Source: a virus. From it: 24,641 bases of DNA. Location: the IMG/VR virus record IMGVR_UViG_3300025030_000400, positions 1 to 24,641 of that record; one strand, 5' to 3'. Every line of letters starts with the position of its first letter. The first letter of the stretch is position 1. The translations under genes were made by a program, and so were the position numbers. The notes under the pieces are model-generated. The model did no database searches, was not told the DNA's origin, and was given only the letters and a program-made list of their open reading frames with translations. Shown here in pieces: positions 2,047 through 15,929 of the stretch.

Positions 2047-2955
2047 TTAGAATTTCTCCCCAGGATGATCCAGCTCCCATTGACGCTTCCGCCGTTCACC
2101 CTCTTCCGCTGTGATTCTGGGAGCGACGTTTACGCCTTCCTGTCTATGCGTGTTATTGTTCCAGCCGCAATAAAAACACACACCACTTTTAGGCGAATAT
2201 TGGTGATAACCGTCGGCGTCATGTGGTACCAGTTTACCATCATTACCCACGAACCACCGACGCACACAGTTATACATTAATGGTTTTTCTATCTCGTTCC
2301 ATGCGGCTTTCAACGCCTCATCGCTCCATGAGTTCGACTTGCACGACGGACATATTTTAGGCAAGCCCTCAATCCTACTCACCCAGGCGTTACCACACTT
2401 CATGCAGTCATACCTCCCCGCGTCAAGTAGCCCATCGGGGTCAAACGGATCGACGCCCGCCCACTTTGTCTTTTTGCACTTAGGGCATTGCCGAGGCACT
2501 GTCGCAGCCGACCGGGACATCCAGGAACCACCACACAGGATGCACTTGCACGGCACGCCCGTAACCACATTGCCAACCTGCCACCTTGTGCTTTTGCACT
2601 TGTGGCATTGTTTAGGTACCGTCTCAGCACTACGGCTTACCCACTCACCGCCGCACACCTTGCACACACAACTGACACCCTCATCCGGTTTATTACCAAC
2701 CTGCCACCTTGTGCTTTTGCAATTAGAACAAATTGACGGGTCGGGCCTGTGACTCACCCACTCATTACCACACAGCTTGCACCTACACACATGTTTGCCG
2801 GCGTAGTTTACCCGCTCATTGAGAAGCCGACCGTAGGAGTTGTGATAACCATCCCAATCCTTACGCTTACACTTTGGACACTGGATAGGAGACCTCAACA
2901 TTTTACTAACCCACCTGTTACCACACTTTTGACACGTGCATTTCGTACCCTTCAT
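2047..2955 (-). CDS. Tandem zinc-ribbon protein (about five repeats, 302 aa)
   Basis: The start is placed at the ATG 2955-2953 because GAGGTG lies seven to eight bases upstream; an upstream TTG would extend it by five residues. The protein is almost entirely a repeated unit of about 35-45 residues with pattern CxCxxCGxxWVSR...CxxCKSxxW. Five clear copies precede a diverged sixth segment (CVRRWF...CFYCGW). Each unit offers four or more cysteines for zinc. Two units are near-identical at DNA level, suggesting recent duplication. A segment between ribbons contains DPFDPDGLL, also seen in two other proteins here. Such arrays usually bind nucleic acid, so a regulator is likely, but the family is not identified. 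Confidence 0.75.
   Translation of the reverse strand: MKGTKCTCQKCGNRWVSKMLRSPIQCPKCKRKDWDGYHNSYGRLLNERVNYAGKHVCRCKLCGNEWVSHRPDPSICSNCKSTRWQVGNKPDEGVSCVCKVCGGEWVSRSAETVPKQCHKCKSTRWQVGNVVTGVPCKCILCGGSWMSRSAATVPRQCPKCKKTKWAGVDPFDPDGLLDAGRYDCMKCGNAWVSRIEGLPKICPSCKSNSWSDEALKAAWNEIEKPLMYNCVRRWFVGNDGKLVPHDADGYHQYSPKSGVCFYCGWNNNTHRQEGVNVAPRITAEEGERRKRQWELDHPGEKF
2573..2721. repeat. Internal DNA duplication within the zinc-ribbon gene
   Basis: A 26-base block is identical at 2573-2598 and 2696-2721 (offset 123 bases, 41 codons). It encodes CKSTRWQVGN in both places, in frame. This indicates a recent unit duplication or conversion in the repeat array, while the flanks have diverged. Confidence 0.8.
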
Positions 2956-3015
2956 TTTGACACCTCGCAAAATAGTAATTTGATTCCCTGTGTTCCGGTA
3001 GTATCATGATAACCC

Positions 3016-3033
3016 GTTGCCTACAAGGGCAAT
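3016..3033. promoter_or_regulatory. Operator-like site, copy 1 (GTTGCC-N6-GGCAAT)
   Basis: The sequence is GTTGCC TACAAG GGCAAT. The pairing arms are TTGCC (3017-3021) and GGCAA (3028-3032), with six bases between. The same 6+6 bases recur at 3451-3468 with an unrelated spacer, so the arms are conserved and the middle is not, as expected for a dimeric repressor site. It lies about 60 bases upstream of the leftward zinc-ribbon start. A weak leftward promoter could overlap it (minus-strand TATCAT at 3011-3006). Confidence 0.6.
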
Positions 3034-3100
3034 AGCCATTATTTTTCGCTAACCAAAACAGCCGACGCCGTAACACCTTGAAATGCCAATGTAGCAGCCC

Positions 3101-3141
3101 CCGCTACTCCAGCACTGCTTTTTACCCTAATGGAGTAGCGG
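3101..3141. repeat. 11-bp perfect inverted repeat / hairpin
   Basis: CCGCTACTCCA (3101-3111) pairs perfectly with TGGAGTAGCGG (3131-3141) around a 19-base loop containing a T5 run. No T-tract follows on either strand, so it is not a standard terminator. It may be a regulatory RNA hairpin, a protein-binding site or a replication-related structure. Confidence 0.65.
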
Positions 3142-3325
3142 CATCCCAATTATTTCAGTAGTTTAACCCTTCTCTCGGTTACTTCCCTTAACTACTTCTA
3201 TCAGAGAAGATCAGAGATGGATAAAAAAAGAAAGTAGGAGAAAGAGAAAAGAGAGAAGAGAGAGAAATACACAATAATACTTCTTTTATATACTATCCAT
3301 CATTGACCCTAAAGGGTAAGCACTC

Positions 3326-3416
3326 GGTGGCGGGGTGGCGGGGAATCAGTTATAGTTTAATGATGTCAACTACTTGCAGCCCCCTTGAGGTGGCGGGGGG
3401 CCTGTGGGGTGGCGGG
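3326..3416. repeat. Four GGTGGCGGG repeats upstream of main promoter
   Basis: Exact copies of GGTGGCGGG lie at 3326-3334, 3334-3342, 3389-3397 and 3408-3416, just upstream of the promoter at 3444. Spacing is uneven. They could be activator or recombinase arm-type sites; the G runs could also form a quadruplex on this strand. No function is demonstrated. Confidence 0.6.
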
Positions 3417-3443
3417 AGCCGCCAGTGTGATCATATGCACCGC

Positions 3444-3473
3444 TTGACAAGTTGCCCCGATAGGCAATATAAT
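3444..3473 (+). promoter_or_regulatory. Perfect-consensus sigma-70 promoter with embedded operator
   Basis: The -35 TTGACA (3444-3449) and -10 TATAAT (3468-3473) are both exact consensus with an 18-base spacer. The spacer holds the second copy of GTTGCC-N6-GGCAAT (3451-3468), ending at the first base of the -10. A protein bound there would block polymerase, so repression is the expected control. The first gene downstream starts at 3521, giving a 5' leader of about 40 bases. Confidence 0.88.
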
Positions 3474-3520
3474 GCGCCCACAGAAGCAGTGAGTACACAA
3501 CCTACACAGGAGTGAGTGCA

Positions 3521-4099
3521 ATGAGTACACAGATGAGCGATCCTTTTGATCCTACAGGAGTTTTTGCGGCAGCGGAGGCAGGTGTGGCTACTCACACAAC
3601 GCCACAACGGACATACCAGACAAAGAAGGGCAAAACTGTCACTCTACCGATCAAAGAGAAGGGAGTGCTCAATAAATCCACCAGGAAGGCTGTAAAACTC
3701 GTTGTAGAGCATGGAGTTGCGCCTAAAGATGCATGGGAGCTAGTGAACGGTAGAACCGCCACCAGCGCAGCCGTAACGAATCTTAAAGCCAAGTGTACCG
3801 ATTACAGCTTGAAAGGGGAGGAAATGCAGCGTCTGTCTCACCGAGTGGTGAAAAATACCCTCAGAGGCAAACCACTGGAGACCAGGCGACCCCAGATCGA
3901 CAAGGCAACGGGTATGCAGGTAAAGGACGATAAGGGGCAACCTATTGAAATCATTGAGTGCCAATACCCCAGCCATACAAACATGCTGGCCGCCGCCTCA
4001 ATGGTCCAGGATCGAGTTGACCCGATTGTCCGGCAGAACATCAACCTCAACGGCAATTTGGCAGACTTCTTGCCGTTTGAACTGGATAAGTATCGGTAA
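3521..4099 (+). CDS. Putative small-terminase-like / HTH phage protein (192 aa)
   Basis: The start is ATG 3521, eight bases after AGGAG (3508-3512); an in-frame GTG at 3512 overlaps that site and is rejected. The N-terminus carries DPFDPTGVF (residues 7-15). A Lys-rich stretch precedes a helical segment (STRKAVKLVVEHGVAPKDAWELV), then a middle with TLRGKPLET and a C-terminal region SHTNMLAAASMVQDRVDPIV. The last pattern, a helix ending in a DRVDP-type motif followed by a short Asn-rich tail, reminds me of phage small terminase or DNA-binding proteins. The distance to TerL (3.8 kb) is unusual for a TerS. The role is uncertain; an early regulator is an alternative. It is expressed from the promoter at 3444-3473. 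Confidence 0.6.
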   Translation: MSTQMSDPFDPTGVFAAAEAGVATHTTPQRTYQTKKGKTVTLPIKEKGVLNKSTRKAVKLVVEHGVAPKDAWELVNGRTATSAAVTNLKAKCTDYSLKGEEMQRLSHRVVKNTLRGKPLETRRPQIDKATGMQVKDDKGQPIEIIECQYPSHTNMLAAASMVQDRVDPIVRQNINLNGNLADFLPFELDKYR

Positions 4100-4178
4100 G
4101 CGGGCGGCAGCTCGACCATGCCCCGGGACCAGGAGACAAGGGGTCATCTTGCAAGTGGTTGATTTTTCAGGGGTTCTA

Positions 4179-4205
4179 ATCGCAACTACTAGTCATAGTT
4201 GCGAT
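4179..4205. repeat. 10-bp inverted repeat with 7-base centre; candidate recombinase core (attP-like) site
   Basis: ATCGCAACTA (4179-4188) and TAGTTGCGAT (4196-4205) are perfect inverted copies around CTAGTCA. Two opposed arms of 9-13 bp around a 6-8 base centre is the known geometry of tyrosine-recombinase core sites. It lies about 260 bases before the recombinase gene in a non-coding stretch. It could instead be an RNA hairpin, though no T-tract follows. Confidence 0.5.
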
Positions 4206-4257
4206 CAACTGGAAGCCGGAAAACAGGTGTTGTAGTGATTTCAGTAACTTACGTGGA

Positions 4258-4297
4258 ATCTGAATATATGAGTCCGAAAATATTCATATATTCAGAT
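4258..4297. repeat. 14-bp perfect inverted repeat
   Basis: ATCTGAATATATGA (4258-4271) and TCATATATTCAGAT (4284-4297) are exact inverted copies with a 12-base spacer. It is strongly AT-rich against its surroundings. It lies between the candidate core site and the recombinase promoter. Possible roles are an excisionase or regulator binding site, or a second recombination site. Confidence 0.7.
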
Positions 4298-4406
4298 ATG
4301 ACCCCCGGTGGCCTACCATTTTCAGCGGCTGTGCTGCCAAGGCCGCCACCCACCTGTCAGGGTGACGAATATTTTCTGGTATCGGTATCTAATAGCAACT
4401 ATTTAC

Positions 4407-4446
4407 TTGTCACTTGGGATTATTGGTGGTATATGTCTCCTATACC
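4407..4446 (+). promoter_or_regulatory. Probable promoter of the recombinase gene, with overlapping inverted repeat
   Basis: TTGTCA (4407-4412), 17-base spacer, TATATG (4430-4435) gives a reasonable sigma-70 promoter. The -10 is overlapped by GGTATA (4428-4433) and TATACC (4441-4446), inverted arms around a seven-base spacer. This suggests local control, possibly by the recombinase itself. The gene starts at 4464 after AGGAGG at 4452-4457. The rest of the 4100-4463 gap holds the two inverted repeats listed separately and no gene I can support. Confidence 0.55.
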
Positions 4447-4463
4447 AACACAGGAGGCATACC

Positions 4464-5057
4464 ATGAGCACACAGGCAATGAACCACCCACCCAAGGGTA
4501 AATGCATCATCGTAGACCCTATCCGATCCCTGGATGATGTTGCTGCTATCAAGCAGTACATAGCGCGATCCCCACGCAATCTGGCAATGTTCACGCTGGG
4601 TGTGAACACCAACCTCAGAGCTGGTGACTTGTTGCGGCTCACCATGGGCGACATCGACTGGTTCCTGGGCCGCCTGCACATCAAAGAGGGCAAGACCAAA
4701 AAGAACCGGTCGATACCCCTGTCAGCCGGCGTGTTGGAACTCCTGGTGGACTACTGTAAGCCGGGCAGGCAACACAGGAAGGATGAATTACTGTTCCCCA
4801 GCAGCAAGGGTGGTGGACCAATTACGGTCTCATCGTTCAACAACATGGTCAAAAAGTGGTGCAAAGACTGTGACCTCATCGGTAACTTCGGTAGCCACTC
4901 CCTACGCAAGACCTGGGCGTATACTCAGCACAACGTGTTCAAGACCGACATGGCCGAGATATCCAAGGCAATGAACCACTCCAGCATGAGTGTGACATTC
5001 CTGTACCTCGGTATTGACGAAGCGGCTCAGGCCAAAATGTACGGTAATTTTATATGA
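4464..5057 (+). CDS. Short tyrosine recombinase (catalytic domain only, 197 aa)
   Basis: The start is ATG 4464 with AGGAGG seven bases upstream; the longer frame from 4308 runs through the promoter region and is rejected. The tyrosine-recombinase active site is complete: Arg52 (NLRAGD), a Lys near 77-79 (EGKTKK), His145 and Arg148 (HSLR), His172 (MNHSS) and Tyr181 (FLYLG). The protein is almost all catalytic domain and lacks an obvious N-terminal arm- or core-binding domain. At about 200 residues it has the size of FimB/FimE-type recombinases rather than a lambda-type integrase (about 350). It likely integrates or inverts DNA; the repeats upstream are candidate substrates. Its stop overlaps the next start (ATGA), implying coupled expression. 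Confidence 0.88.
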   Translation: MSTQAMNHPPKGKCIIVDPIRSLDDVAAIKQYIARSPRNLAMFTLGVNTNLRAGDLLRLTMGDIDWFLGRLHIKEGKTKKNRSIPLSAGVLELLVDYCKPGRQHRKDELLFPSSKGGGPITVSSFNNMVKKWCKDCDLIGNFGSHSLRKTWAYTQHNVFKTDMAEISKAMNHSSMSVTFLYLGIDEAAQAKMYGNFI

Positions 5058-5998
5058 AGCATGACCCGTTCGACCCCAAAGGGTTGTTGACCCCACCCCG
5101 CCAGATGACCGAGGGACTGCTGAAATCGGTTTTTCTGTCACAGCGGCAGGGGATGACCCTCGGTCAGAAAATTTCCATGTCTCTGCGTCGTATCCGCCAC
5201 TGGTACGAGTTGTACGACGGGAACGTGCATGTGACATTCTCAGGCGGGGCTGACAGCACAGTGCTACTCGACATGGTGAGATCGATCTACCCCCACGTAC
5301 CCGCCGTATTCGTTGACACAGGTGTGGAATTTCCTGAGATACGGGAGTTTGTGCGTACTGTTGATAACGTGGTATGGGTCAAACCAAAAAAGACGTTCAA
5401 ACAGGTTTGCCAAGAGTACGGGTATCCTGTCGTCAGCAAGGAAACCAGTCAGAAATTGCACGAAGTGCGTACCACCAAGTCTGAGTTCATGATGAAACTG
5501 AGAACCACCGGTGTAGAGGGCCGTAAGCGCCAGACTATCCCCAAAAAATGGCAGTATCTCATCGACGCGCCGTTCAAAATAAGCCACAAGTGCTGCTACT
5601 ATCTGAAAAAAGAACCATTGTTCCGCTATGAGCGGGCTACGGGGAGCAAACCGTTTGTGGGTGTAATGGCCGCCGAGTCGTGTGCTCGGTTGCAATCTGC
5701 AACCGAGCACGGGTGCTTCATGTTCGGAAAGCACCCGATGTGCCGACCAATGTCCTTCTGGACGCAGGCTGATAGCCACGCGTACCTGGCAATGATTGAC
5801 CACTGCGTTCTGTACGACCCACCGTTCAATTTCACCCGCACCGGCTGCATGTTCTGCGGATACGGAGTCGATCAGGAAAGCCCGAATAAATTTCAGAAAA
5901 TGGCTGTCACACACCCCCGCATCCACCGACTAGCCCTGCCTGCTATGGGTATCGACAAGGTGATGGAGTTCATGAAGCAGCCTATAGGAGCCACCTAA
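5054..5998 (+). CDS. PAPS-reductase-family PP-loop ATPase (314 aa)
   Basis: The start ATG overlaps the recombinase stop. After a 60-residue N-terminal segment beginning MKHDPFDPKGLL comes the PP-loop SGGADST (residues 63-69), the ATP-pyrophosphatase signature of the PAPS reductase/DndC/tRNA-thiolation superfamily. A Cys pair (SHKCCYYL) and a C-terminal GCMFCGYG segment could hold a metal or Fe-S cluster, as in DndC-like proteins. Phages often encode such proteins, but their substrate is mostly unknown. Candidates are adenylylation or thiolation of DNA or tRNA, or sulfur assimilation. No dnd partners (DndB, DndD, DndE) are in the window. The DPFDP motif is shared with two neighbouring proteins. 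Confidence 0.85.
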   Translation: MKHDPFDPKGLLTPPRQMTEGLLKSVFLSQRQGMTLGQKISMSLRRIRHWYELYDGNVHVTFSGGADSTVLLDMVRSIYPHVPAVFVDTGVEFPEIREFVRTVDNVVWVKPKKTFKQVCQEYGYPVVSKETSQKLHEVRTTKSEFMMKLRTTGVEGRKRQTIPKKWQYLIDAPFKISHKCCYYLKKEPLFRYERATGSKPFVGVMAAESCARLQSATEHGCFMFGKHPMCRPMSFWTQADSHAYLAMIDHCVLYDPPFNFTRTGCMFCGYGVDQESPNKFQKMAVTHPRIHRLALPAMGIDKVMEFMKQPIGAT

Positions 5999-6527: not shown

Positions 6528-6604
6528 CGGAGCGTAAGTCAGCCTGGTAGACACCCCGGCCTGGACCCGGGAAGCCGTTGGTTCGAATCCAACCGCGCCG
6601 ACCA
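6528..6604 (+). tRNA. tRNA-Pro (anticodon UGG), atypical anticodon loop
   Basis: The 77-base sequence folds as a tRNA with encoded CCA (6602-6604). The acceptor stem CGGAGCG/CGCGCCG has one A-G mismatch. The D arm contains AGCCTGGTA, the anticodon stem CCCGG/CCGGG is perfect, and the T arm is GTTGG-TTCGAAT-CCAAC. C1-G72, A73 and the D-loop text are typical of bacterial tRNA-Pro. The anticodon loop is C-C-UGG-A-C, with the anticodon at 6562-6564. Position 33 is C instead of the almost universal U, and position 37 is A instead of the G normal for tRNA-Pro. It may be partly decayed or specialised. A promoter may lie at 6471-6500. Confidence 0.9.
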
Positions 6605-7258: not shown

Positions 7259-7284
7259 CAAACACCGCCACACAGCGTTAATGT
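7255..7284 (+). promoter_or_regulatory. Probable promoter of the packaging genes
   Basis: TTGACA (7255-7260) is followed by TAATGT (7279-7284) at 18 bases or TTAATG at 17. The spacer includes ACCGCCACACA, also present in the promoter at 10728, suggesting related promoters or a shared binding site. It lies in the 120-base gap before the HNH gene. The -35 overlaps the stop codon of the preceding gene. Confidence 0.55.
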
Positions 7285-7378
7285 GTTTGCGCTCCTACCT
7301 TTAGCGGGGGAACATCTGGCACCACACCAGACCGGAGCGCAAAATTTACCATGTGGAACGCCGAGTGGAGGTGTGACA

Positions 7379-7930
7379 GTGAAGAAACCCCGCGCAAAAC
7401 GTATCAACGGTTCACTCAGAGACAGTTTCATGGCGAAGTTTAAAGAGGACTTCTGGACCGGCTGCTGGTTGTGGACCGCTTCTACCGATCAAAAAGGCTA
7501 CGGCCATCTCAGACACGGTGGCAAGGATTACAAGGCACACCGTCTGTCATATGAATTTTTTAAAGGCCCAATACCGGAGGGTGAAGGGTTCCATGGTACG
7601 TGCGTTCTCCACACTTGCGACACACCAAACTGCGTTAATCCAGAACATCTGACGTTGGGCACCAACCTCGACAACATTTTGGATATGAGAGCAAAGGGTC
7701 GTGACATCAGCAAGGGTGAGAACCGGTACAACTCCAAGTTGACCGAGGAAGACGTTGCAAAAATCAAAAAAGACCCGCGCACACTCGCGCAAATAGCCGC
7801 CGATTACCCTGTGGGGTACAAACAGATCGGCAGGATCAAACAGGGCGTTCGGTGGAGACACACCAATCGGCCAGAGGTGGTAGCGATTGGCAATCAACTT
7901 CACACCACACCCCCAAATCGCCCCATGTAA
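7379..7930 (+). CDS. HNH endonuclease (183 aa)
   Basis: Start is GTG 7379, preceded by GGAGGTGTGACA; longer in-frame starts cross the promoter. Residues 28-96 form an HNH_3-type nuclease: a GCWLWTAS entry motif, AHRLSYEFFKG, then VLHTCDTPNC and NPEHLTLGTN, with catalytic/metal His78 and His90 and zinc-type Cys. The C-terminus (SKLTEEDVAKIKK ... YKQIGRIKQGVRW) resembles a NUMOD/HTH DNA-binding tail, typical of free-standing homing endonucleases. Small HNH proteins next to TerL also take part in cos-type DNA packaging in some phages, so either role is possible. It overlaps the terminase gene by 44 bases. Confidence 0.85.
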   Translation: MKKPRAKRINGSLRDSFMAKFKEDFWTGCWLWTASTDQKGYGHLRHGGKDYKAHRLSYEFFKGPIPEGEGFHGTCVLHTCDTPNCVNPEHLTLGTNLDNILDMRAKGRDISKGENRYNSKLTEEDVAKIKKDPRTLAQIAADYPVGYKQIGRIKQGVRWRHTNRPEVVAIGNQLHTTPPNRPM

Positions 7931-9692
7931 GAGTGTTTACGACTCCGATCTACTGGAGTTACGCAAACGGCTCGGCCTCAGTCACAAACTCCAGGGTGAC
8001 GACATACAGGAACTTACCACACATCCCGAGTTCCCGTGGGTCACTTGGTACGCACACAATTATGAGGCAATGTTCCGCGACATAGCTGGTGGTGAGGACC
8101 ATGACCGCGAGGCCCGGGCCAAGGGGTGTCAACGTGCTTTGATCAAAGGCGACCTGTTCTACATCGTCGCGTGGGTCATGGAAGTGCCGATGGACATCTG
8201 CAACCACCCGTATGTGGTCAAGAGTTGCCACGAGATCGAGAGCAGTTCACCCGATGGCGGTTTGGGTATGACCGACATACTGGACATCGAGTCTCGCGAA
8301 CATTTCAAAAGTACAACAAGAACAATAGCACTCACGATCAAGCGTGTTGTCAACGATCCTGACTGCTGCACAGGCATATTTTCCTTCAAAAAAGACGCAG
8401 CCACCAAGTTCCTACAGTCGATCAAGGAGACTTTTGAGCGGCAGTTGCTCATTTGGGCATTCCCTGAGATTTTTTACAGCAACCCGCATCACGAATCACC
8501 ATCATGGTCATTGCAGAACGGTATCTGCGTCAAACGCAAGTCATCCAGCCGCCGTGAGCATACCGTAGAGGCGTTTGGTCTTGTCGAGGGGATGCCCACA
8601 GGCTCACACTTTTGCCACCGGATTTACGACGACGTGGAGACGTTTGACATCGCAAAATCTGCCGGCCAGATGGAAATCTGCTTTAATTCCTTTGAAATGT
8701 CGTTCTCACTCGGACGGCAGGGTGGTACAGAGATTATTCAAGGCACGTACTACCATCACATGGGGGTATTGGCGAGGATCAGGGACAAAAAGAAGGCTGA
8801 TGGAACACCCGTCTACCGACTGATCATCAAACCCTGCACTGAGGATGGTACTCGGACAGGTAAACCGGTCCTATTCTCCCCCGAATACCTGCAGCGGTGT
8901 ATCGAGAAGTCAGGCAAGCAGTTCGACAGCCAGTATTTGTGCAACCCGACCCCTGTGGACACGATAACACTCGACAAATCCATGCTCAACCGCATCGACC
9001 CGGCATTCCTGCGAACTGGCAAGTGGGCTGATCGGTACAAATTTTTAATTGTCGACCAGGCGGGCGGCACGGACACCAACATCAGCGGCCCAGGCGACAT
9101 GTGGGCTATCGGAGTTGTGAGCATCGTGCCCAGCGTCAGCCTGGCGAGTCGCACCGGAGCCGAGGCGACCGACGACGACTTGGGTATCTCGGACATCTGT
9201 GTGGAAGACCTCATAGCCGACCGATTTACACATTCTCAGGCGGTAGATACCATTGTCAGGATGTACCTTAAACACGGCATGATCATGCAGGTAGGCGTGG
9301 AAAAAGTGGCTCTCAGTACCACAGAGATACACGTAGTCGATGCACTGGCAGCCAAGGGGCGCAAGTTGAGTGTACAGCACGGTAATCTATTTTTACTTAG
9401 GCCGGCTGGTCGAAAACTTGAGAATCGCATCAGCTCGGCGTTGGAATGGCCTCTGAACAACGGTCATATCTCGTATTCAACTGGTATTGACCCTGAGTAC
9501 ATTGAAAAAATGAAGCAGGAGATGGACCAATTCGGGTTCGGGCACTCGGATATCCTGAACATCATCAGCTACAGTTACGACATGTTCCGAGTGTTCCCAT
9601 TCCACAGGTACGCAAAGCGCAAGGTAGTCAGTGTCACATCATTAATGGCCGCTGGATCGGCTGGCGGTCGTGTAAAAGGCGAGTGGGGTTAA
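7887..9692 (+). CDS. terL: Terminase large subunit (601 aa)
   Basis: The DNA-packaging motor ATPase/nuclease. The likely start is TTG 7887 after AGAGGTGG, since no ATG with a ribosome site lies close. An N-terminal adenine-binding-like region leads to a Walker A-like SREHFKST (residues 136-143), with Phe where a Gly or Ala is usual. A Walker B-like IYDDVE lies at 246-251. The C-terminal half begins an RNase H-like nuclease at FLIVDQAGGTD (Asp390), ending in a lysine-rich tail. Size fits TerL proteins (450-650 residues). The neighbours, HNH nuclease before and portal after, confirm the role. It is probably transcribed from 7255. Confidence 0.88.
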   Translation: MAINFTPHPQIAPCKSVYDSDLLELRKRLGLSHKLQGDDIQELTTHPEFPWVTWYAHNYEAMFRDIAGGEDHDREARAKGCQRALIKGDLFYIVAWVMEVPMDICNHPYVVKSCHEIESSSPDGGLGMTDILDIESREHFKSTTRTIALTIKRVVNDPDCCTGIFSFKKDAATKFLQSIKETFERQLLIWAFPEIFYSNPHHESPSWSLQNGICVKRKSSSRREHTVEAFGLVEGMPTGSHFCHRIYDDVETFDIAKSAGQMEICFNSFEMSFSLGRQGGTEIIQGTYYHHMGVLARIRDKKKADGTPVYRLIIKPCTEDGTRTGKPVLFSPEYLQRCIEKSGKQFDSQYLCNPTPVDTITLDKSMLNRIDPAFLRTGKWADRYKFLIVDQAGGTDTNISGPGDMWAIGVVSIVPSVSLASRTGAEATDDDLGISDICVEDLIADRFTHSQAVDTIVRMYLKHGMIMQVGVEKVALSTTEIHVVDALAAKGRKLSVQHGNLFLLRPAGRKLENRISSALEWPLNNGHISYSTGIDPEYIEKMKQEMDQFGFGHSDILNIISYSYDMFRVFPFHRYAKRKVVSVTSLMAAGSAGGRVKGEWG

Positions 9693-9849: not shown

Positions 9850-10014
9850 GTGACGCCAGAACAGATCGAGCGGATTTCAAGAGAGGTGAAGGACGGGATA
9901 GCAATCCGAAACCTCGCCAAACGGATAGGTGAATTGGACGACAACATAGCCGACTGCCACACACGCCGCAAGGCAGCTATCATGCGGGCGGCTCAGGCCG
10001 TCAGGGAGGTGTGA
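9850..10014 (+). CDS. Small phage protein, coiled-coil-like (54 aa)
   Basis: The start is GTG 9850 in the cassette GGAGGTGTGACAGTG (9838-9852). The upstream in-frame ATG at 9748 lies within the preceding gene. The product (VTPEQIERISREVKDGIAI...) is almost all charged helix. Its stop is part of the next identical-looking leader. The role is unknown. Confidence 0.55.
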   Translation: MTPEQIERISREVKDGIAIRNLAKRIGELDDNIADCHTRRKAAIMRAAQAVREV

Positions 10015-10016
10015 CT

Positions 10017-10721
10017 GTGGATTTCAGAGTAATGTTGGAGTCAGGAGATGATGAATACCCGGGGTGCTTTTTGGTCCTCGGGTTGGGTAAATGGCGCAAG
10101 CAAATTGCTATCCCTGCGATAGTCAAACCGGGCGTGTGCATGGTCAGAGGTCAGTACAACTACGACGAGTTCATAGAGAGCCGTTACGGTGTGTACCTCT
10201 TTGAAAATCACTTCAACATCTGTTACGGGCGCGGGGATGCCAATTTCAACCGTGACATTTTCGGTGAGGAACAGCGGTGGAGTTGCTTCTTGCCTTGGAT
10301 GGAATGGCGGCACGTTCGCCACAGTCTATACGACCTGTCGGGTGGGCACGTCTTTACTCAGTTCGACCGGGACGCAGCCAAAGGTGTGAAACAATACGAG
10401 GATTTCCGCAAACAAGAACCCATCTGCCCCAAAAGGGTATTCACTTTCAGGGATTTCGATGGCGAAGAAATCGAAGCCACAACCCACATTGAAGAACGAG
10501 AATGGCACCGTGGTGAAGGTTGGTTCAAATGGTTGTCATGGTTTACACCCGCCAAAATTCGGCGTAGTCTCGACATCCAGTTCAACAAAGAGACAGGTAA
10601 ACGTAAGGGATCGTGGAAAGGTGGGACTATTGGACACGGGATCGACATGCAGCCTGGCGAGTTGCATGAATCGGCGTTTAGACGGTACTGTGTGAAGCAC
10701 GGTATGACATTCGTCAAATAA
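10017..10721 (+). CDS. Phage protein of unknown function (234 aa)
   Basis: Start GTG 10017 lies eight bases after GGAGG (10005-10009); GTG 10011, overlapping the previous stop, is an alternative adding two residues. The protein is rich in Trp, Phe, Tyr and Arg, with segments such as GLGKWRKQIAIPAIVKPG and EREWHRGEGWFKWLSWF. A repeated basic C-terminus includes GKRKGSWKGGTIGHG. No domain is recognised. It lies between TerL and portal, a common site for unknown genes in such phages. Confidence 0.75.
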   Translation: MDFRVMLESGDDEYPGCFLVLGLGKWRKQIAIPAIVKPGVCMVRGQYNYDEFIESRYGVYLFENHFNICYGRGDANFNRDIFGEEQRWSCFLPWMEWRHVRHSLYDLSGGHVFTQFDRDAAKGVKQYEDFRKQEPICPKRVFTFRDFDGEEIEATTHIEEREWHRGEGWFKWLSWFTPAKIRRSLDIQFNKETGKRKGSWKGGTIGHGIDMQPGELHESAFRRYCVKHGMTFVK

Positions 10722-10756: not shown

Positions 10757-10833
10757 GCCAGCCGACACTCACACAACCGCATTTCGGGGGTTGTGTGCAA
10801 AGACCGATAGCCAAACTGGAGGACATCGGCACA

Positions 10834-13071
10834 ATGGCAAAACGCACCATCACTACATCCGGCACCAGTGCCACTGCCACATGGCTCTCAGCCCGCGTGA
10901 AGGAACTCGACGCCGACCTCTTGGCCGATCAACACAATAGGCAAGCGGCCATCGAGGACTTGAAATTCGCACTCGGGCAAGGCAACCAGTGGGACCCCGC
11001 CGTTCGTGCCGAGCGTGAGGCCGATGGTCGTCCTACGCTTGAAGTAAACCTATTTCCCCAATTCATCAGCCAGGTGACCGGCGACATTCGCCACAATCGC
11101 CCCCGCGCCCGTATCACCCCCGGTGACTCCACAGCAGACGTTCAGATCGCCCGTATCCGTGAGGGTATCATTGCCGACTCTGAGTACCAGAGCAACAGCG
11201 ATTATATCTACGTCGAGGCGGCGACCAGCAACGTGACGTGTGGCTATGGTGCATGGCGTGTGCGTACCCGCTACACCGAAGAAAACCCCTTTATTCAGGA
11301 ATTCTACGACGAGCTCATAGACAACCCATTCACGGTCGTCATGGATCGCCATGCCAAGTGTCCCATCTATTCCGACGCTGGGCACGGCTGGATCATCGGC
11401 AAGATGCCCGTCGAGGACTTCAAGAAGGAGTATCCTGGCAAGCGGCTCCCCGGCGACTCGCTGTCACCCGGTGAAGGTCTTAGCTATCAGAACTGGTACG
11501 ATGACGAGACTGTCACCGTTGCCGAGTATTTCGTCCGCACCAAGGTCAAAAAGACAATCTGCCTGATGTCCGATGGCAGCGTAATCGCCAAGGCCGATGT
11601 GGCTGAGGCAACCAGATCGGTGCCGCTTGAGTTGAGTTCGGAACAGCCCCTTGCCCCTCCCAATGAGCTACCCGCAAATCCTCAAGCGGCACCGGTACCC
11701 CTACCAGCAGCGCAGCCGGCACAGGCGACCCCGCAAGCGGCACTGGCACCCCCGGTCGCGGCTCCTGTTGCTGCTGGTGCATCACCCCTGTCCATAGTCA
11801 AGGAGCGCGAGACCGAATACACCACGATCAAACGCTACGTCATCACAGCGTGTGACATTCTGAGCAAGAACGGTCTGGACGGTGAGGATGTCCCGGGAAC
11901 GATCATACCGATCATCCTGCTGACCGGCCACCGCACCAACATCGAGGGCAAGACATACATCAGCGGTCTGGTCCGCAACGCCAAGGATGCCGCCAAGAAC
12001 GTCAACTACTGGGTGAGTGCCCTTGCCGAGCGGATCGCCCTGGAGCCGAAAGCACCGTGGATGGCTACGCCGCGACAGATCGAAGGGTTTGAGAACGACT
12101 ACATCAGCACCAACAAGAAAAACCTGCCGGTGCTGTTCTACAACCCCGACCAGACGGAGAGCGGTCAACCACTTCCCCCACCCATGCGCCAAGGCCCGGG
12201 TGCCGTACCCGGCGCTCTGTTCACACAGCTCCAGAGCAGTATGAGCATGTTTGAATCGGCAATCGGTATGACCGGCACCGACCTGGGTGCATCCGGCCCC
12301 GAGCGCACCGGGGCGGCTGTGACCGCTCGCCAGAAGCCCGGTGACGTTCGGACGTTCAGTTACATCGACAACCTGGCCCGGGGCATCGCACACGGTGCCA
12401 AGATCAAGAACGAGATGATTAGTGAACTGTACGACACACCCCGCGACGTGCGGTTGCGTGGTCTGGATGACACCGAGACCTACCTACCGGTCAACATGCC
12501 AGTGCGGGACGCCTACAATATGATCCAGGCGCATCCCGAGCGGTACAAGGGTATGAACACCACTAAGCTGATCGCCGCGGCGCAGCAGCAGGGGTGGGAC
12601 GCCAAGTTCAACGACATCACAGCCGGCAGATACGCGGTCAGGGTCACAGTCGGCCCGAGCTACGCCACACAGCGCCAGGAGTCAAGCGAGTACATGCTGC
12701 GTCTGGTCAGTGCCCTGCCCAAGCAGATGGGTCTCGGTGCCGACCTGATCGTGGGCAACTCGGGTGTGGTTGGTGCCGAGGTGCTTGCCGAGCGGATCAA
12801 GAAAACCTTACCCCCAGGCATCGCCAAACCGACCCCGGGCGAAGACCCGCCGTTGCCGCAACCCACCCCACCGCAAGTCATGCTGCAGATGGAGAAGGCC
12901 AAACTGGAGCAGCAGAAGGTCATGCTGCAAACAGCCAAGGTCGAGGTGGAAAAGCTGCGCGTGGCTAAAGAGGCGCAGGGTGAGATGAGTAACATACGAC
13001 AAGAGATTCTGAGCGTGCTGGCCGAGTTACATGGCCACACGCCTACCACCGAGGGAGGGATGCCACAGTGA
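10834..13071 (+). CDS. Portal protein, P22 gp1-like (745 aa)
   Basis: The head-neck connector that forms the DNA channel. Start ATG 10834 follows CTGGAGGACA; an earlier in-frame GTG at 10795 lies upstream of that site. P22-type features are visible: FPQFISQVTGDIRHNRPRARI near residues 70-95, and a C-terminal helical barrel segment with QMEKAKLEQQKVMLQ and a heptad-like run, matching the portal barrel. Length is close to the P22 portal (725). Residues about 266-319 (nt 11631-11790) are an Ala/Pro/Gln-rich linker with repeated PLPAAQPAQ-like text, not usual for this region. It overlaps the next gene by GTGA. Confidence 0.9.
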   Translation: MAKRTITTSGTSATATWLSARVKELDADLLADQHNRQAAIEDLKFALGQGNQWDPAVRAEREADGRPTLEVNLFPQFISQVTGDIRHNRPRARITPGDSTADVQIARIREGIIADSEYQSNSDYIYVEAATSNVTCGYGAWRVRTRYTEENPFIQEFYDELIDNPFTVVMDRHAKCPIYSDAGHGWIIGKMPVEDFKKEYPGKRLPGDSLSPGEGLSYQNWYDDETVTVAEYFVRTKVKKTICLMSDGSVIAKADVAEATRSVPLELSSEQPLAPPNELPANPQAAPVPLPAAQPAQATPQAALAPPVAAPVAAGASPLSIVKERETEYTTIKRYVITACDILSKNGLDGEDVPGTIIPIILLTGHRTNIEGKTYISGLVRNAKDAAKNVNYWVSALAERIALEPKAPWMATPRQIEGFENDYISTNKKNLPVLFYNPDQTESGQPLPPPMRQGPGAVPGALFTQLQSSMSMFESAIGMTGTDLGASGPERTGAAVTARQKPGDVRTFSYIDNLARGIAHGAKIKNEMISELYDTPRDVRLRGLDDTETYLPVNMPVRDAYNMIQAHPERYKGMNTTKLIAAAQQQGWDAKFNDITAGRYAVRVTVGPSYATQRQESSEYMLRLVSALPKQMGLGADLIVGNSGVVGAEVLAERIKKTLPPGIAKPTPGEDPPLPQPTPPQVMLQMEKAKLEQQKVMLQTAKVEVEKLRVAKEAQGEMSNIRQEILSVLAELHGHTPTTEGGMPQ

Positions 13072-14594: not shown

Positions 14595-15929
14595 ATGGGA
14601 GCCAATGTTGTATTGACCGACTCGGTAATTGCCAAAGAGGCAATGATGGAGTTTCAGAACCAGATCGGATTCCTGAAAGGCGTCCGCAAGCAGTATTCCG
14701 ACCAGTTCGCAAGGACCGGCGCCAAGATCGGCGACACGATCAACGTCAAGAAACCGAAACGTTGGACCGTCCAGCAGGGGCCGGGGATCATCCCGCAGGG
14801 TCAGACCGACGAGACCGTGCCGCTCACCCTCAATCGCTTCTGGACCATCCCGATGTCCTTCAGCGATGTGGAGCGTACCCTGCACATCGATGAGTTCCGC
14901 AAGCAGTATATCGTGCCGGCGATCAGCAAGATGGCATCGCAGATGGACTGGGAATGCCATGTGGCTGCGATCACCGGCCTCTATCCGACCGCCAACAGCC
15001 TCGGTTCCTACGCCTGCCCCGGCGCCGGCCCCGTCAACACCGTAATCGGCACCCCCGGCACCACCATTGGCACGGCAGGTGGTTCGGCCACTGGCCTCCT
15101 GCAGTACAACGCACCGACCGCGTTCTTGAACGCCGGTATGCTGCTCGACAATGCCTGCGCACCGGACGACGGCAACCGCCACATGCTGCTCAACTCCGCA
15201 GCACAGGCTTCCAGCATCGGCAGCCTGACCGGCCTGTTCAATCCGCAGGGGATCATCTCCGACCAGTACCGTAAGGGTGTCTTGGGCGATGCGCTGCGAT
15301 TCAAGTTCGCCATGGATCAGAACTGCCACGTGTTCACCGCCGGCAGCCGCGCCATCAGCGGCAACGAGACTACCACCACGTCCGCATGGACTGCGGGTGC
15401 CACCCCGTCGGCAACCATGGTCTTCACCGCGGCAGCCGGCGACAACACCAAAACTCTTGTCCCGGGTGATACCTTCACCGTAGCCAACGTCTACGCGGTC
15501 AACCCCGACAACCAGCAGAACACCGGCATCCTGTACCAGTTCGTCGTGGCCGAGGCGGTCACCCTGGCAACCGGCGCCAACAACGTGGTCGTCGCCAACC
15601 CGCCCCGCGTAGCCGGGCCTACCACCGCATACGGCACCGTCGTCCTGACCGGCACCAGCGCCACCGCAGCCGTGGTGTTCACGACCGGCGCGGCCAGCAC
15701 CGTCAGCCCGCAGAACCTGGCTTTCCACGAATCGGCGTTCACCCTGGGTACCGCTGACCTCCCGGTTGACATGCCGAATTGCCGCGCCACCCGCGTCAGC
15801 GAGGAAGGGATCAGCATGAGAATCGTAACGGGCTATGACATTATGAGTTCCAATGTCATAACGAGGCTGGATGTGCTCGGGGGCTTCTCCACCCATCGCC
15901 CCGAATGGGCTGTGAGACTTGCCTCGTAG
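14595..15929 (+). CDS. Major coat protein, P22 gp5-like HK97 fold (444 aa)
   Basis: The main capsid subunit. AAGGAG (14580-14585) precedes ATG 14595, giving strong translation. The N-terminus (MGANVVLTDSVIAKEAMMEF) and the segment GDTINVKKPKRW, then SFSDVERTLHIDEF, match P22-type coat proteins of about 430 residues. The middle (residues about 250-380, Thr/Ala/Val-rich, with FTVANVYAVNP) fits the inserted I-domain of this family. A longer Gly/Thr-rich loop near residue 150 (GTPGTTIGTAGGSATG) is an addition. The long leftward frame opposite it is a shadow. Confidence 0.92.
   Translation: MGANVVLTDSVIAKEAMMEFQNQIGFLKGVRKQYSDQFARTGAKIGDTINVKKPKRWTVQQGPGIIPQGQTDETVPLTLNRFWTIPMSFSDVERTLHIDEFRKQYIVPAISKMASQMDWECHVAAITGLYPTANSLGSYACPGAGPVNTVIGTPGTTIGTAGGSATGLLQYNAPTAFLNAGMLLDNACAPDDGNRHMLLNSAAQASSIGSLTGLFNPQGIISDQYRKGVLGDALRFKFAMDQNCHVFTAGSRAISGNETTTTSAWTAGATPSATMVFTAAAGDNTKTLVPGDTFTVANVYAVNPDNQQNTGILYQFVVAEAVTLATGANNVVVANPPRVAGPTTAYGTVVLTGTSATAAVVFTTGAASTVSPQNLAFHESAFTLGTADLPVDMPNCRATRVSEEGISMRIVTGYDIMSSNVITRLDVLGGFSTHRPEWAVRLAS

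Follow-up and report, generated by a model that had tools for sequence, protein, structure and literature searches.

The window, by which we mean the whole 24,641-nt stretch of viral DNA analysed here, carries three copies of a nonapeptide in three neighbouring genes, one leftward and two rightward, upstream of the large terminase and portal genes. The features on which the argument draws are as follows.

2047..2970, minus strand: zinc-ribbon repeat protein of 307 aa, with a variable number of CxxC ribbons and weak zinc-ribbon matches
2425..2451, minus strand: motif copy 1, DPFDPDGLL, at residue 174 of the 307-aa ORF 2047-2970, in a linker between zinc ribbons
3512..4099, plus strand: small terminase (TerS) by predicted fold, from an AF2 model, six best VIA-align matches that are all TerS, and motif-bearing orthologues
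3539..3565, plus strand: motif copy 2, DPFDPTGVF, at residue 10 of ORF 3512-4099 (residue 3 from a later ATG), in the N-terminal tail of TerS, which is predicted to be disordered
4308..5057, plus strand: tyrosine recombinase, a short integrase (PF00589, 4.6e-25; phrog_216)
5054..5998, plus strand: PAPS-reductase-like PP-loop protein (PF01507, 2.6e-17; phrog_424, 1.5e-40), whose start overlaps the recombinase stop
5063..5089, plus strand: motif copy 3, DPFDPKGLL, at residue 4 of ORF 5054-5998, in an N-terminal extension of the PAPS-reductase-like protein
7283..7930, plus strand: HNH endonuclease before TerL, without the motif (PF13392, 1.1e-7)
7887..9692, plus strand: large terminase (TerL; phrog_38, 2.2e-17), used to find relatives and a possible candidate partner
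10795..13071, plus strand: P22-type portal protein (PF16510, 7.5e-133), a possible candidate partner

All three peptides lie in open frames, on both strands, exactly where an initial sequence-only reading of the window had placed them, and six of their nine residues (DPFDP-G) are identical throughout. No further copy of the nonapeptide occurs in any of the six frames of the window, and the exact DNA pattern for DPFDPxG[LVF][LF], which matches three times, was not found in 100 dinucleotide-preserving shuffles. That reading had also held that the three carriers have no other visible homology; indeed, Pfam, PHROGs and NCBIfam revealed no domain common to them, giving PAPS_reduct for the third carrier, weak zinc-ribbon matches for the first and nothing convincing for the second.

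Distribution of the motif

Searches with TerS and TerL recovered a small lineage that has no close named member and comprises G001 (locus L011), the near-identical contigs G002-G004, G005, G006 and G013. The related contigs are few and fragmentary, and a gene-content comparison for the partner was limited by G004 and G016, both of which stop within the replication module. By tblastn, neither TerS nor TerL nor the zinc-ribbon protein has a relative among GenBank phages. Ranked by portal, the nearest named phages are Vibrio VvAW1 and Thalassomonas BA3; the stretches of them that were read contain no FDPxG, and TerS is unrelated in the named P22-type phages whose portals are nearest. A prophage search of 84,980 species genomes with TerS and TerL profiles gave no match.

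The core FDPxG[LIVMF][LFI] occurs 14 times in the 83,231 predicted residues of the six contigs that carry motif copies (the window, G001, G004, G005, G006 and G013); genes were called by longest ORF and residue totals are approximate. Residue shuffles of the same contigs gave a mean of 0.035 cores (maximum 2) and 119 permuted versions of the core a mean of 0.08 occurrences, which agrees with the original view that the similarity is unlikely to be due to chance. The 14 copies are not independent, as six belong to TerS orthologues; independence holds for the five kinds of carrier, namely TerS, the zinc-ribbon protein, the PAPS-reductase-like protein, an HNH protein and an HNH-AP2 protein. In all five the motif lies in a tail or a linker. 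The core is absent from 61,670 residues of four motif-less relatives.

Across 2.9 million viral contigs, the exact pattern was found in 13 stretches, seven in relatives and six in unrelated contexts, two of these six being the same protein. A relaxed pattern gave 48 stretches, and contigs with two or more of them occurred in this lineage only. Random frequency in unrelated proteins had been named as a result that would speak against the motif; outside the lineage the scan returned isolated singletons. Those in L004, L005/L012, L009, L010 and L013 are single copies in different phages and were judged coincidental. The same verdict applies to GLFNPQGII in the coat protein (window about 15231-15257), which resembles the motif core; this FNPQG is found in the window's sublineage only and is lacking there in relatives that have the TerS motif. 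The peptide was not mentioned in any phage paper of the literature searched.

The motif is conserved as a peptide rather than as DNA. When carrier families are compared, the four invariant residues have a wobble identity of 0.37, where codon usage would predict about 0.42, and the flanks have an identity of 0.25. Variation at the wobble bases is thus what codon usage predicts, and most flanks show no relationship, which places selection on the peptide, and a DNA-level element was rejected as the general cause; the exception is one pair of genes with common leader DNA, discussed below. As a separate observation, 13/14 copies encode the motif glycine as GGA or GGG, compared with a share of 36% within those genes (nominal p 1.5e-5, with copies in the window, G001, G004, G005, G006 and G013 that are not independent).

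The carrier proteins

Its predicted fold makes ORF 3512-4099 a small terminase. No TerS model of Pfam, PHROGs or NCBIfam matched it, and Foldseek alone gave no significant match. In the AF2 model (nine sequences, mean pLDDT 67) the first 32 residues are disordered, an HTH starts near residue 52, and a helical core and a beta hairpin are also present; the top six VIA-align matches, at modest Z of 4.6-5.2, are all TerS (2cmp, 4zc3, 6ejq, 3zqq, 6v1i, 6w7t). A TerS is characterised by an HTH with a helical oligomerisation core after it and by a gene upstream of TerL, and the model and the gene order show this arrangement. Around the motif pLDDT falls to about 40, which with so low an overall confidence and so shallow an alignment is weak evidence of disorder.

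Motif-bearing TerS orthologues were found at L011, L019, L020, L069 and L081, and the tails in the lineage read NDPFDPTGVF, EDFDPEGIF, TDPFDPEGFF, MDPFDPDGLF and NSFDPDGLF. FDPxG[VIFL]F is invariant in the tails of six phages, while the rest of the tail hardly aligns and the proteins are elsewhere as little as ~40% identical. Two sublineages keep the motif in TerS even though their coat proteins are only about 24% identical, which makes TerS its likely first user. The motif is absent from the TerS orthologues of G014, G015 and L097 and from the different TerS of G016. These distant motif-less orthologues coexist with TerL proteins 40-57% identical to those of motif carriers, so the motif is not needed for packaging in general.

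TerS has a second conserved segment, a C-terminal tail P-[IVF]-[DE]-L-x-x-[YFW], which is likely a docking tail for TerL or the portal. It is also conserved in TerS proteins that lack FDPxG, so FDPxG probably serves another contact. We observed this C-tail at 4043-4096 of the window and also at L103 (4394-4936), where the TerS differs in sequence. TerL is bound by the C-tail of TerS in lambda and P22 (PMC9611059). Our motif resembles the docking tails described there in being a short, flexible terminase segment, theirs docking to a packaging protein; it differs in being an extra N-terminal tail before the HTH, and in that the same peptide occurs on unrelated proteins.

The zinc-ribbon protein (mean pLDDT 55) has values below 50 at residues 165-181, around motif copy 1, again weak evidence of disorder from a shallow alignment. 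Its counterparts in G004 and G005 keep VDPFDPxG although ribbon number and linkers differ and the sequence before the motif cannot be aligned with that of the window. A related zinc-ribbon protein in G006 lacks the motif.

ORF 5054-5998 contains a PAPS_reduct PP-loop domain (PF01507, 63.9 bits, where the cut-off is 22.5) and is placed in the family by this domain; the NCBIfam PAPS-reductase equivalogs score far below cut-off. Its orthologue in G005 is 44% identical and has the motif at the C-terminal end (WVTDPFDPQGLLAF), so that orthologous proteins carry it at opposite ends, and the G005 gene lies ~30 kb from TerS, in another part of the genome. In the window protein the motif lies in an extension beyond the conserved domain; it is absent from 12 PAPS homologues outside the lineage, where the proteins either begin downstream of the extension or carry different tails. 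Loss from orthologues was the other outcome said to weigh against the motif, and here the picture is divided: the motif is kept inside the lineage and missing from distant TerS and PAPS homologues. Judged from the sequences compared, it is specific to the lineage, homologues of its carriers elsewhere being without it.

The slot behind TerS holds a tyrosine recombinase in the window and a serine recombinase in relatives. In the window, G001, G004, G005, G006 and G013, the recombinase is followed, with a short overlap, by a cargo gene. In G005 and G001 an HNH protein encoded behind the recombinase, near TerS, has DLFDPMGLL or DDFDPNGIL at its N-terminal end. In the same slot, an HNH-AP2-HTH protein of G004 has DLFDPAGLI between the AP2 domain (104-153) and a resolvase HTH (208-241), and a resolvase-like HTH is seen in the HNH cargo of both G004 and G006. 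HNH nucleases work with terminase in HK97-type packaging and are often encoded beside it (cited in PMC9611059). In the passages of that source consulted here, recruitment by a peptide in common with TerS is not described.

A probable docking motif and its possible partner

We think it probable, though far from certain, that [D/E/N]-x-F-D-P-x-G-[LIVMF]-[LFI] is a lineage-specific short linear docking motif, displayed in flexible tails and linkers, that would most likely bind one pocket of a common partner. It would be oldest in the N-terminal tail of TerS; in one sublineage the zinc-ribbon and PAPS-reductase-like proteins and two kinds of HNH nuclease would have gained it later, and such a gain would bring accessory proteins to the partner used by TerS. 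This reading follows from the unrelated carriers, the flexible positions, the changing ends and the retained core: the motif recurs in non-homologous proteins above chance and lies in tails or linkers, with predicted disorder around two of the window copies. The sequence-only reading had offered two explanations, a short linear motif for a common partner and a marker of a mobile gene set. The short linear motif is strongly favoured by the five kinds of protein, the placement at either end of the PAPS protein, the synonymous variation and the random flanks, and its common partner we infer from the same pattern. Counting against docking, the carriers have no evident common pathway, and a gene slot with a conserved leader accounts for part of the pattern without any function.

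As a guess, the partner would work alongside TerS on the phage DNA at a late stage of infection, and could be the portal, TerL, or a replication or packaging protein; we rate such a partner slightly above a hub protein of the host. TerL itself is not an obvious candidate: it is usually bound by the C-tail of a terminase, and motif-less TerS orthologues occur together with similar TerL proteins. Nor would a purely packaging role explain all carriers, given the distance of the G005 PAPS gene from TerS.

A host hub protein, such as the sliding clamp, RNA polymerase or a protease adaptor, which the motif would recruit or hijack with TerS as one client, is possible but on the unlikely side. The PAPS-reductase-like, HNH and zinc-ribbon carriers look like accessory genes, one of them far from the terminase genes, and a host target would allow the motif to persist in two sublineages with such divergent coats; most carrier genes, however, cluster within a few kb of TerS. 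The 20-residue consensus had no match in PDB sequences, a weak test for so short a query. The bacterial sliding-clamp binding motif is of the QL[SD]LF type, with a glutamine anchor. Like ours, it is short, occurs in tails or linkers of many unrelated DNA-acting proteins and has a bulky hydrophobic end. The peptides described here bear no resemblance to that canonical sequence: they have an invariant F-D-P-x-G, are confined to one phage lineage and lack a conserved glutamine, the single Q among the 14 being at the free x position.

It is distinctly unlikely that the motif targets its carriers to the virion or procapsid, so that they would be loaded into or onto the head via portal, scaffold or ejection proteins. 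The copies are short and often N-terminal, an idea comparable to the T4 capsid-targeting sequence, an N-terminal peptide that is removed on head maturation and likewise marks unrelated phage proteins. Most of our carriers are encoded in the packaging region, and delivery of nucleases and enzymes together with the DNA would be reasonable. Here, however, the motif may be N-terminal, C-terminal or internal, TerS, which is not normally a virion component, is among the carriers, and the two sublineages that keep the TerS motif have strongly different coats and scaffolds.

That the motif is a by-product of the mobile-gene slot, a common leader behind the recombinase spread by DNA copying without a function of its own, seems very improbable, yet one pair of genes fits it. 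From the motif on, the leaders of the window PAPS gene and the G005 HNH gene are identical at 33/48 bases (global score 15.5 versus 2.2 +/- 1.35 in shuffles), although the recombinases upstream (tyrosine and serine) and the gene bodies downstream are unrelated. This single pair is suggestive of a leader that may have stayed while the cargo was swapped. Apart from it, the flanks of different carrier families show only chance similarity, and their wobble bases differ; the copies on the opposite strand, at the PAPS C-terminal end and in the interdomain linker cannot derive from the leader, and the invariant residues outlast the sequence around them. As a marker of a mobile gene set, then, the motif would serve only for the slot behind the recombinase, the TerS and zinc-ribbon carriers being resident genes.

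Chance similarity of acidic, proline-rich peptides, to which the six background stretches of the strict pattern might point, is refuted by the shuffle counts, the three copies in 24.6 kb and the conservation in orthologues.

The docking reading has a more elaborate form, which we regard as rather doubtful: a phage tagging system, in which the TerS docking peptide would be fitted to resident and incoming accessory proteins and the leader of the recombinase slot would tag each new cargo. Docking peptides common to several proteins are familiar from eukaryotes and from a few bacterial hubs. If the docking reading is true, a motif that one phage lineage places on its terminase and on unrelated enzymes would point to a hidden interaction hub and provide a handle on orphan accessory genes, and a nine-residue peptide is directly testable.

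Three further features were observed. A tRNA-Pro(TGG) lies between TerS and TerL in the window (6528-6604) and in its relative G004 (L067, 14502-14578). The TerL genes of G005 (48663-51617) and G006 (3060-5804) have intein-like insertions at about the same site near Walker A. Finally, the protein encoded at 10011-10721 of the window matches, almost from end to end, the CBASS inhibitor Acb3 (PF25187, E 2.2e-74).
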